Source: Natrinema salaciae (lineage in GTDB: Archaea > Halobacteriota > Halobacteria > Halobacteriales > Natrialbaceae). From it: a stretch of DNA of 64,000 nucleotides. Each line of letters opens with the position of its first letter. Positions within the stretch are counted from its first letter, which is position 1. Shown here piece after piece: positions 4,508 through 54,277 of the stretch. Below the pieces are notes generated by a model, which ran no database searches, was not told the origin of the DNA, and was given only the letters and a program-made list of their open reading frames with translations. Location of the stretch: the NCBI RefSeq assembly GCF_900110865.1, contig NZ_FOFD01000003.1, forward strand, positions 744,001 to 808,000. The letters are read 5' to 3'. Both the position numbers and the translations under genes were made by a program.

Positions 4508-4705
4508 AGTTTTACCGATATGTATGGAAATGGATAGAAAACGTTCGAATTCAATGGCTAAGTGTTCTATTACGATTGTAAAACGTTAGGAAGACAGTTG
4601 TAAGTGGAGGGCAACGGACTACTTGACCCGACCCTTCCGGGCCAGAACGTCCGGCGTGTCCCAGCACGCCGGGGTCGGGTCGACCTCGCCACGAGGTCTC
4701 CGACC

Positions 4706-5077
4706 ATGCGAAACGAACGCTCGGGGGCAAATGGATATTCCCCCACTGACAGTGGTATCGCCGGCCGTCCCCGCGGCCGAGACGTCGCTGCGGACGACCG
4801 ACCGTCGCGAAGACCACCGTCTCGCGACGCGATCACCGACGGCGGTCACGACCCCGGCTCGATCGAGCGCCGCCTCGCGGAAATCGACAAACAGGCCGGT
4901 ATCGTCCTCAAGGACCTCGAGACCGCCGACGGACGCGATCTCGAGCCGGCCGCGCGCTGCGCTCTCGAGGACTATCTCGGAACGATCCGCTTCTACACCG
5001 AGGCCGCGACGTGGCTCCTCGAGCACGGCCCGCCTCCGGCCGACGACGGCCTATCGCGGACCGCCGACGGAGAGTAG
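4706..5077 (+). CDS. Hypothetical haloarchaeal protein with helical C-terminus
   Basis: The 123-residue frame begins with a disordered, charged N-terminus. From about residue 50 it forms a predicted helical pair (IERRLAEIDKQAGIVLKDLE and a segment ending TEAATWLLEHGPP). The ATG at 4706 was preferred over the earlier in-frame start at 4604, because the intervening segment has an arginine/proline-rich, non-haloarchaeal composition. The C-terminal half has the acidic bias expected of a real halophile protein. No family was recognised and no function is proposed. Confidence 0.6.
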   Translation: MRNERSGANGYSPTDSGIAGRPRGRDVAADDRPSRRPPSRDAITDGGHDPGSIERRLAEIDKQAGIVLKDLETADGRDLEPAARCALEDYLGTIRFYTEAATWLLEHGPPPADDGLSRTADGE

Positions 5078-27463: not shown

Positions 27464-27828
27464 TCGCCTCGAGTCGGATACGTATCGTTCCGCTCGGCGG
27501 TTGACCTCCTCCCACGTTCACAAGTGCTTCGCTCCTGTGTGGCCCATCAGAACGCTTCGCGTTCTGCGGACGGCTGAAGCCGTGGGATTCCACTGCGTGG
27601 GTGAGTCAGGCGGTGCCTGTGCCACCGGTGGCAAGATTCCCCTCGCAGGGACACCGTTCGAGTCGCTTCCAGCCACTCGAGCCGTCGGTTCGAACCCGTC
27701 CGGGGACGCGGCCGACTGACGATTCAAAATCGTTTTGTCCGTGCCGATCCGAAACTCGCCATGGCGATTACGCTCGGTAGAACTATTCTGTGCGCAGCTG
27801 CGATGGGACGACAGAAGGGTGACCGCGA
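27464..27828. other. Intergenic region with IS-end-like hairpins, no gene
   Basis: The 365 bases before GMP synthase contain the IS200/IS605-like hairpin relic described separately. They also have several small palindromes (for example CCACCGGTGG near 27620) and a TTCGAACC run near 27690. A short AT-rich stretch at 27719-27735 may be part of the guaA promoter. No credible protein is encoded. Confidence 0.5.
27502..27600 (+). mobile_element. Probable IS200/IS605-type (TnpB) end relic
   Basis: The stretch has the haloarchaeal IS605/IS1341 end signature, TGACCTCCTCCCACG later answered by CGGCTGAAGCCGTGGGATTCC. The outer arms TCCCACG (27510-27516) and CGTGGGA (27581-27587) are complementary. They enclose a 7-bp hairpin AGAACGC-TTC-GCGTTCT (27549-27565) and a CGGCT/AGCCG stem (27571-27582). 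No transposase or TnpB frame is attached, so this is a leftover end or a miniature derivative. Confidence 0.55.
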
Positions 27829-38624: not shown

Positions 38625-39056
38625 TCAGCCGTCCCGCTCGCGGTCGTCTCGAGCGGCCCCTTCCTCCCCGTCGTCGTCCCGGCGATCGCAGAGGGCGGCG
38701 AGGCGGTCGGCGCGCCCCTCGAGCAGCGTCCGCCCGGCGTCCGTGAGACGGTAGGCGGGGACGCGGCCGGCGCGTCCGTCGCGCGTCGCGACGAGACCGC
38801 GGCCGACGAGCGCGCGCAGGTTCGGCTCGAGGCGCGCGCGGCTGACCGTCGGATACCGCTGCTCGAGGGTCCACTTGATCCCGGAGGGGTAGCCGGCGTA
38901 GCCGTCGCGCTCGCGTCGGGCGACGGCCTCGAGACAGTCGCGCTGGAAGGCGGTGAGTTCGATCCACGCGCGGCGGCCGTCTGCCGTCTGTTCGTCTCGG
39001 GGTGATGCGTCCGCTCGAGCGGGGGGTTCACGGTCCCGCGAATCGTCGTCGGGCAT
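38625..39056 (-). CDS. PadR-like winged-helix regulator (paralogue 1)
   Basis: The 143-residue protein has an acidic, disordered N-terminus (MPDDDSRDREPPARADAS). The winged helix contains ELTAFQRDCLEAVARRERDG, GIKWTLEQRYPTVSRARLEP and GLVATRDGRAGRVPAYRLTD. It is closely related to 41765-42220; both have a nearly identical leader and end in an RGADRLAALCDRRDD-like helix. The ATG at 39056 is shared with the paralogue. The family members probably bind operators in their own leaders, but no target is known. Confidence 0.78.
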   Translation of the reverse strand: MPDDDSRDREPPARADASPRDEQTADGRRAWIELTAFQRDCLEAVARRERDGYAGYPSGIKWTLEQRYPTVSRARLEPNLRALVGRGLVATRDGRAGRVPAYRLTDAGRTLLEGRADRLAALCDRRDDDGEEGAARDDRERDG

Positions 39057-39165
39057 GGCTTTCGCTGGGTGATTACGGGAGCCACGCGGGCCGGTGTTCA
39101 GGCACCGGTCCGCGTTTTCGGGACTGGTTCGGGTAGCCGTGGGTCCGTCTGGCCTCCGTTGTATA
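39054..39165 (-). repeat. Conserved leader of winged-helix paralogue 1
   Basis: The sequence before the ATG is closely similar to that before the paralogous gene at 42220. Shared words include GGCATGGCTTTCGCTGG, GCCACGCGGGCCGGTG, TCCGCGTTTTCGGG and GTGGGTCCGTCTGG. Conservation of an untranslated stretch beyond the promoter suggests a functional 5' leader, or a recent duplication not yet decayed. Confidence 0.7.
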
Positions 39166-41764: not shown

Positions 41765-42220
41765 CTAGCGTTCGTTTCGAGTCCCGAGCGGCCGGTCCGC
41801 TCGCTCCGCTCGAGCGGCCCCTTCGTCTCCATCGTCGTCGGTGTCCCGGCGATCGCAGAGGGCGGCGAGGCGGTCGGCGCGCCCCTCGAGCAGCGCGCGC
41901 CCGGCCCCAGTGAGGCGGTAGGCGGGGACGTGGCCGGCCAGTCCCTCACGCATGGCGACGAGGCTGCGGTCGACGAGTGCGCGCAGGCTCGACTCGAGGC
42001 GACCGGAGCTAACCGCCGGATACCGCTGCTCGAGGGTTTGCGCGATTCCGGAGGGGTAGCAGGGGTAGCCGTCGCGTTCGCGCCGGGCGACGGCCTCGAG
42101 ACAGTCGCGCTGGAAGCCGGTGAGTTCGACCCACGCGCGCCGGTCGTCCGCGGTGTCGGCTGGGGGCGATGCGTCTGCTCGAGCGGGAGGTTCAAGGTCC
42201 CGCGAATCGTCGTCAGGCAT
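41765..42220 (-). CDS. PadR-like winged-helix regulator (paralogue 2)
   Basis: The 151-residue paralogue of the protein at 38625-39056 starts MPDDDSRDLEPPARADASPP. The winged helix carries ELTGFQRDCLEAVARRERDG, YPSGIAQTLEQRYPAVSSGR and GLAGHVPAYRLTGAGRALLE. The paralogues differ in the wing (VRDGRAGRVP against MREGLAGHVP). The upstream stretch carries a 24-bp inverted repeat (42358-42381) that could be its operator. It is transcribed toward the potassium-channel gene. No known target. Confidence 0.78.
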   Translation of the reverse strand: MPDDDSRDLEPPARADASPPADTADDRRAWVELTGFQRDCLEAVARRERDGYPCYPSGIAQTLEQRYPAVSSGRLESSLRALVDRSLVAMREGLAGHVPAYRLTGAGRALLEGRADRLAALCDRRDTDDDGDEGAARAERADRPLGTRNER

Positions 42221-42326
42221 GGCTTTCGCTGGTTGGTTACGGAAGCCACGCGGGCCGGTGGTTGGGCACCGGGTCCGCGTTTTCGGGGACCAATTCGGGT
42301 AGCTGTGGGTCCGTCTGGCTTCCGTT
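42218..42326 (-). repeat. Conserved leader of winged-helix paralogue 2
   Basis: This is the counterpart of 39054-39165, again immediately upstream of the ATG of a PadR-like gene. Similarity stops at the start of the promoter side, where each copy has its own inverted repeat. Confidence 0.7.
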
Positions 42327-42357
42327 AGTTCAGTCAAGGAGCGGACATCACTTAGTA

Positions 42358-53673: not shown

Positions 53674-53742
53674 GACGGTACACCGCCGTCTCGTGGGTTT
53701 CATCCTCGACCCAGACCGATACAATCCGGGCCCATTAGCAGT

Positions 53743-53749
53743 AGATATA
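53743..53749 (+). promoter_or_regulatory. TATA box for the structured RNA element
   Basis: AGATATA (53743-53749) stands about 27 bases before 53771, the first base of the first hairpin. That is the normal spacing between archaeal TATA box and transcription start. Confidence 0.55.
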
Positions 53750-53770
53750 AGTTCTAACGAGTCAATGGAT

Positions 53771-53898
53771 AGACCGGAAGCCGGTCTCCCGTGGGGACGT
53801 TACCGAAACGTCCCGGGTGGTCCAAGCACCCGAGACTTGGCTTCCACCATACGGCGAAGCCATGATTCCGTACAGCCTTCCGGGATATAAACGTCCCG
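53771..53898 (+). ncRNA. Structured RNA candidate: four hairpins, pseudoknot and alternative pairing
   Basis: Consecutive stems can be read directly. H1 is AGACCGG/CCGGTCT (53771-53777 with 53781-53787). H2 is GGGACGTT/AACGTCCC (53794-53801 with 53807-53814). H3 is CGGGTG/CACCCG (53814-53819 with 53827-53832). H4 is TGGCTTC/GAAGCCA (53838-53844 with 53856-53862). The loop of H4 (TACGG, 53850-53854) can pair with CCGTA at 53868-53872, making a pseudoknot. A second AACGTCCC at 53890-53897 competes with H2, and CGGGA/TCCCG (53881-53885 with 53894-53898) can form a closing stem. It starts at the expected distance from a TATA box and precedes a zinc-finger gene, so it may be a 5' leader or an independent RNA. 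An alternative is an IS605-derived (omega-RNA) relic, because ACGGC-GAAGCC-TG-ATTCC resembles 27570-27590. Confidence 0.5.
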
Positions 53899-53974
53899 CA
53901 CGACGCCCGAATCGCCAGCCGCGACCAGTCTCGAGTCCGCGCACACGGCCGCGACGACCCGGGAGGGCCGGCGC

Positions 53975-54145
53975 GTGAGCGACGACGGCGAGGCCGGCGC
54001 GGTCTCCCCGGCCCCGTTCCCCGACTGTCCCCACTGCGGCGAGCCGGTGCAGTTCGTCGTCGCCACGGGTCCCCACACCGGCACCGTCGAACCCTGCGGC
54101 TGTTCCCTGCCGCCGGACCTGTTCGACCAACTTCGCGAGGAGTAG
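53975..54145 (+). CDS. 56-residue zinc-finger micro-protein
   Basis: The frame starts at GTG 53975, eight bases after the GGGAGGG at 53961-53967. It encodes an acidic N-terminus, then PDCPHCGEPVQFVVATG and VEPCGCSLPPDLFDQL, ending in TAG. The four cysteines (CPHC and CGC) can form a zinc site. The C-terminus forms a short helix (FDQLREE). This fits the haloarchaeal class of small zinc-finger proteins. Its leader contains the structured RNA element at 53771-53898, which would be unusual for this group, because most haloarchaeal messages are leaderless. Confidence 0.7.
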   Translation: MSDDGEAGAVSPAPFPDCPHCGEPVQFVVATGPHTGTVEPCGCSLPPDLFDQLREE

Positions 54146-54277
54146 TCGCCCTCGCGCTCGAGCCCCCCGAAACCGGCCGGAACGGAGATGAGAACTCGAG
54201 GGGCGGTCCGATCGATTCTGCCCGTTTTATTCGTCGCGTTGCGCACTTTTATACTACCCCGTTTCGTACGTATAATC

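Follow-up and report, generated by a model that had tools for sequence, protein, structure and literature searches.

Most haloarchaeal messages are thought to be leaderless, and to our knowledge natural riboswitches are essentially undocumented in haloarchaea. A 2021 article cites a single natural archaeal riboswitch that had been determined experimentally, the fluoride riboswitch, and gives a c-di-AMP-like riboswitch of Halobacterium as a prediction only (PMC8241225). The window analyzed here, a stretch of 64,000 nucleotides from Natrinema salaciae (Natrialbaceae), contains at positions 53770–53864 a member of a structured RNA class of salt-loving archaea that had not been catalogued before. 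This stretch is probably a haloarchaea-specific, cis-acting 5′ leader that controls the translation of the following gene, a reading derived from sequence comparison. Rfam 15 contained no family matching the window at the gathering score, and for the leader stretch a relaxed threshold gave no more than chance-level matches. An earlier description of the leader class was not found in the open literature. The parts of the locus are as follows:

53744–53751, plus strand: TATA box GATATAAG in the conserved block CAGTAGATATAAG (coordinates checked; alignment)
53770–53864, plus strand: structured leader RNA, 80.7 bits with the leader-only covariance model R2; the 3′ end is the ATG of the upstream ORF
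53776–53788, plus strand: 5′ strand of P1, GGAAGCCGGTCTC (covariation)
53793–53814, plus strand: hairpin P2 with conserved GAAA in the loop (own versus swapped strands, z = −4.6)
53815–53831, plus strand: hairpin P3, GGGTG-N7-CACCC, with a near-invariant stem and a variable loop of 6–7 nt
53832–53845, plus strand: 3′ strand of P1, GAGACTTGGCTTCC (covariation)
53856–53861, plus strand: 3′ strand of P4, GAAGCC, directly 5′ of the upstream-ORF ATG
53862–53978, plus strand: putative upstream ORF of 38 codons, basic, MIPYSLPGYKRPARRPNRQPRPVSSPRTRPRRPGRAGA (suggested by its conservation)
53881–53898, plus strand: hairpin P5, CGGGATATAAACGTCCCG, within the upstream ORF; its codons are unusual (covaries, z = −5.4)
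53961–53966, plus strand: Shine–Dalgarno-like GGGAGG inside the upstream ORF, 5′ of the zinc-finger start
53975–54145, plus strand: zinc-finger microprotein of 56 amino acids, CPHCG-x18-PCGC, GTG start

In this architecture, the long helix P1 closes a three-way junction with P2 and P3, which is built from four helix segments that all covary, and the 3′ end of the leader is an ATG in nearly all copies. Among 161 leaders, the AT content was maximal 20–25 nt 5′ of the start of the leader model, and 101 TATA-like matches began at −24 from it. This grouping indicates that the leader is probably the 5′ end of the transcript, which is predicted to lie near 53770 in the window. In leader promoters outside Natrialbaceae (e.g., loci L240, L246, L257, and L261), locus-specific inverted repeats flank the TATA box; their longest exact arm measured 5.82 for own and 4.40 for swapped arms (z = 10.7), and they are absent in Natrialbaceae. 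These repeats look like gene-specific operators.

The leader occurs in many copies. A BLAST search with 53740–53910 detected 12–13 dispersed copies in the own genome, and a covariance model detected 14 strong ones. At least 120 stretches were found by a pattern scan of named genomes, which belonged to Natrinema, Natrialba, Halopiger, Halovivax, Natronoglomus, Natrarchaeobius, Natribaculum, Halostagnicola, Natronolimnohabitans, and Natronobiforma. The first covariance model matched 82 out of 125 genomes of the family with hundreds of copies, at least 24 of them in some genomes; outside the family, it found weaker relatives ahead of unrelated genes. With R2, matches were obtained in 206 of 392 Halobacteriales genomes, distributed over 68 of 95 genera (the E-values of the models R1 and R2 are rough), for example on plasmids of Haladaptatus halobius, Halorubrum ezzemoulense, Haloarcula halobia, Natrinema sp. 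SYSU A 869, and Halopiger xanaduensis. A phylum-wide sample yielded no leader matches outside the order Halobacteriales, and phage records gave none either. The loci L001, L002, and L005 have both flanks in common across three species, and three Natrinema species carry the window copy at the same place, which speaks against a mobile repeat; overall, 16 cross-species pairs of copies had homologous sequences on both sides. The window itself harbors two further leaders and one weak candidate:

42218–42329, minus strand: second leader, 29.5 bits, with the ATG of a PadR-like winged-helix ORF as its 3′ end
about 41765–42220, minus strand: PadR-like winged-helix ORF behind the second leader
39054–39163, minus strand: third leader, 24.7 bits, with the ATG of a PadR-like paralogue as its 3′ end
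about 38625–39056, minus strand: paralogous PadR-like ORF behind the third leader
4617–4708, plus strand: weak candidate leader, 19.7 bits, with an ATG at 4706; its GGTCGG can pair either with CCGACC in the 5′ arm or with a second CCGACC just 5′ of the ATG

The covariation was assessed against shuffles, slides, and swaps of partner strands between loci. In 91 rows found by R2, double changes occurred in 23 of 24 pairs, the covariation score was 0.316 (0.123 shuffled, at most 0.089 slid), and 87.5% of the cells were paired (75.8% shuffled); these counts favor P1, P2, and P3 because the R2 model contains these helices, whereas P4 is free of this bias. P3 was paired in 99.3% of the cells, with double changes in four of its five pairs, and its loop (53820–53826, 6–7 nt) differs in almost all paralogues within one genome. 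Besides the P3 stem, few positions are conserved across all families while unpaired, mainly the GAAA of the P2 loop. The single-sequence fold was only modestly better than shuffles (z = −1.78); chance is ruled out by homology, that is, by the copies and their covariation, rather than by folding energy.

The 3′ strand of P1 covaries not only with the 5′ strand of P1 but also with the 6–9 nt directly 5′ of the ATG, which form P4. In the first set of loci, own versus swapped strands gave z-values of −8.8 (other families) and −9.2 (Natrialbaceae) for P1, and of −6.2 and −4.4, respectively, for P4. For 31 further loci, which had been found with a model lacking P4, the values were −10.6 for P1, −8.6 for P4, and −0.2 for the control. 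Since one strand has two covarying partners and cannot pair with both at once, P1 and P4 are mutually exclusive. In the window, the common strand GGCTTCC (53839–53845) can pair either with GGAAGCC (53776–53782) in P1 or with its rival GAAGCC (53856–53861) in P4. The computed energies of the two folds were −53.9 and −54.7 kcal/mol; across 85 copies, the median gap was 1.4 and 72% lay within 5; these figures lack a matched control and take no account of molar salt.

These results bear on a sequence-only reading of the locus, which had described a TATA-driven structured leader with two possible folds 5′ of a zinc-finger microprotein. This description is supported by homologues with compensatory changes, a check the reading had itself proposed, and the TATA box, the local hairpins, CCGTA at 53868–53872, the GTG at 53975, GGGAGG, and the 56-residue CxxC ORF all lie at the positions it gave. 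The four hairpins it counted are present, but the first local one is weak (z = −1.2 overall, −2.7 in Natrialbaceae). Both partners that it assigned to GGGACGTT exist, but pairing with 53890–53897 shows no covariation (z = 0.1), so that the supposed switch between two folds is supported as the exchange of P1 for P4 and not as this pairing. A pseudoknot of the fourth loop with CCGTA found no confirmation, as the complement is not conserved (15% own, 9% swapped). The stem at 53881–53898, counted as the last one, lies within the coding sequence of the upstream ORF. The reading had missed that the ATG of this ORF is where the RNA ends, and that the class extends throughout the haloarchaea and precedes many other genes.

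The upstream ORF became apparent in 135 instances, in which the block supposed to be a hairpin or a second TATA box encodes M(I/F)xYILPGYKRPARxxNR, beginning with an ATG right behind GCC. Because the pattern used for this census included the coding block, the census was repeated on copies from a model ending at the ATG; a zinc ORF was present in 43 of 55, with a stop/start overlap of −4 in 27 and −8 in 5 of the 43. At the window locus, the TGA of the upstream ORF overlaps the zinc-finger GTG by 4 nt (GTGA). The overlap is thus kept across homologues, which suggests translational coupling. The second TATA at 53884 was rejected as an internal promoter, since it corresponds to the codons GGA-TAT-AAA of the conserved ORF. 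In hairpin P5, GGGA/TCCC is exchanged for GAGA/TCTC, and the codons switch jointly between Gly/Pro and Arg/Leu in most copies. As a universal part of the leader, P5 was dismissed; it is weak outside the zinc-finger subgroup (three offsets examined).

The zinc-finger protein gave nothing above the cut-off against Pfam and PDB. Proteins of the CPxCG-related class are shorter than 100 amino acids and combine a CPxCG-like pattern with a second C/H-x2-3-C/H pattern 7–40 residues apart. The first pattern and the length of the 56-residue protein fit this class; its second pair is CxC instead of C/H-x2-3-C/H, and PCGC was found in 39 out of 39 aligned zinc-finger proteins. Genes behind other leaders encode SWIM zinc fingers, CxxC proteins, PadR-like regulators, and exported or Cys-free proteins. 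As the PadR-like, exported, and Cys-free proteins stand beside many Cys-cluster proteins, a zinc riboswitch is not claimed. SWIM genes on plasmids of Halorubrum lacusprofundi and Haloferax lucentense have no leader; the leader is therefore not simply part of the SWIM gene.

Up to 24 places resembling one small SWIM protein were found in a single plasmid record of Haladaptatus. Behind leaders of other families, unrelated proteins have a common N-terminal pattern like P-T-Q-E-G-x-D, which suggests that the module reaches into the coding region. An inverted repeat of the type CTCGAGCCCC...GGGGCTCGAG recurs after many Natrinema copies, in the window at 54150–54215, 3′ of the zinc-finger ORF, and is possibly a terminator. 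On a plasmid of Haloarcula halobia (L307), the listed CDS starts 108 nt inside the match and misses the leader-adjacent ATG; at L306, the zinc-finger CDS is absent from the PLSDB gene table, which is incomplete.

Either of two competing helices can form, and one of them abuts the start codon, which looks like a translational on/off switch. Such a switch appears to be the most economical reading of the alignments. Transcription would start near 53770. Stabilization of the P1 junction by a small ligand, an ion, or a shared protein would leave the stretch before the ATG free, so that the upstream ORF could be translated, and ribosomes terminating at GTGA might re-initiate on the zinc-finger gene. 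If P1 is not stabilized, pairing in P4 would extend to the base immediately 5′ of the AUG, and initiation would be blocked. We infer this direction of switching, with P1 as the on and P4 as the off state. One RNA core ahead of unrelated proteins points to a shared signal rather than to each protein controlling its own leader. A conserved structured aptamer with covariation, as in riboswitches, was found together with an alternative, mutually exclusive helix that would control expression. Tentatively, the leaders may thus form a natural riboswitch class that is confined to haloarchaea, responds to one common metabolite or ion by the exchange of P1 for P4 at the AUG, and was amplified in Natrialbaceae, where a genome would carry dozens of paralogous operons of an upstream ORF and a zinc-finger gene.

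The main rival is a shared protein partner. An RNA-binding protein, or the encoded zinc protein, would bind P2/P3 and shift the balance of P1 and P4, and no small-molecule riboswitch would be involved. Although we consider this rather unlikely, the conserved bases are located mostly in the P3 hairpin and the P2 loop, as in protein-binding sites, and many downstream genes encode small proteins of zinc or DNA/RNA-binding type. The leader also has fewer conserved unpaired bases than many metabolite aptamers, so a protein partner or the lack of any ligand is possible. Autoregulation by the own product is unlikely, because zinc-finger, SWIM, PadR-like, and exported proteins have the same RNA core; a common third protein could be the partner. 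Ionic strength or temperature might also set the balance of P1 and P4 physically and ligand-free. The near-equal fold energies and the restriction to halophiles are in accordance with such a sensor, but a simple melting switch needs no conserved three-way junction with conserved loop bases, and we judge such a sensor improbable.

In a further alternative, the leader is a processing signal at which an endonuclease cuts beside the AUG to yield a leaderless mRNA. In nearly every copy P4 stops right at the AUG, which would fit, as would leaderless translation being the haloarchaeal norm; since it does not account for two exclusive helices that covary separately and are similar in energy, little weight is given to this explanation. 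An independent small RNA or a transposon relic (TnpB omega-RNA, IS605 end, MITE or REP element) would account for dispersed multiple copies with their own promoter, but the copies are fused to a start codon with the coding frame kept and occupy orthologous positions across species, which makes this origin very improbable. The mobile-repeat variant (MITE/REP) was discarded in view of the orthologous flanks and the kept linked ORF. The TnpB/omega-RNA relic had been put forward in the sequence-only reading on account of a similarity near 27570; R2 finds nothing there, the chance identity GAAGCC is all that the leader and this tract have in common, and the copies precede zinc, SWIM, or PadR-like ORFs, so that homology is not limited to IS605 ends. 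The tract itself (GAACGCTTCGCGTTC...GGCTGAAGCCGTGGG, 27540–27600), which we take to resemble haloarchaeal IS605-type ends, lies just 5′ of a tRNA-Gly and is unrelated to the leader.

A covarying leader that sits immediately on the start codon and occurs in roughly half of the Halobacteriales genomes sampled, sometimes in more than 20 copies per genome, is a concrete, testable candidate for RNA-based control of translation without a Shine–Dalgarno sequence. The leader further reveals hundreds of small genes that are unannotated or have wrongly assigned starts, including the upstream ORF, zinc-finger microproteins, and N-termini missed by annotation.

The putative switch resembles translational riboswitches in having a junction-closing helix P1 that can lose its 3′ strand to a second helix beside the start codon, and in being one 5′ module ahead of many genes; it differs from them in lying outside Rfam 15 and in having no Shine–Dalgarno sequence to mask at the first AUG. 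Ribosomal-protein leaders likewise provide related genes with a common structured leader (PMC7247131), but here the downstream genes do not encode ribosomal proteins and no Rfam leader matches. With operons of the leader-peptide or attenuation type, the locus has in common a short conserved upstream ORF that contains unusual codons and has a 4- or 8-nt overlap with the main ORF; in contrast to these, the RNA switch precedes the upstream ORF, and no terminator was seen. The encoded protein is similar to Brz of Halobacterium salinarum, a CPxCG-related small zinc-finger protein, in size and in a paired Cys motif starting with CPxCG (PMC2253796). Its second pair PCGC (CxC), however, falls outside the C/H-x2-3-C/H definition, and the expanded paralogues, each with a leader and an overlapping upstream ORF, form an arrangement not described for Brz (PMC2253796).
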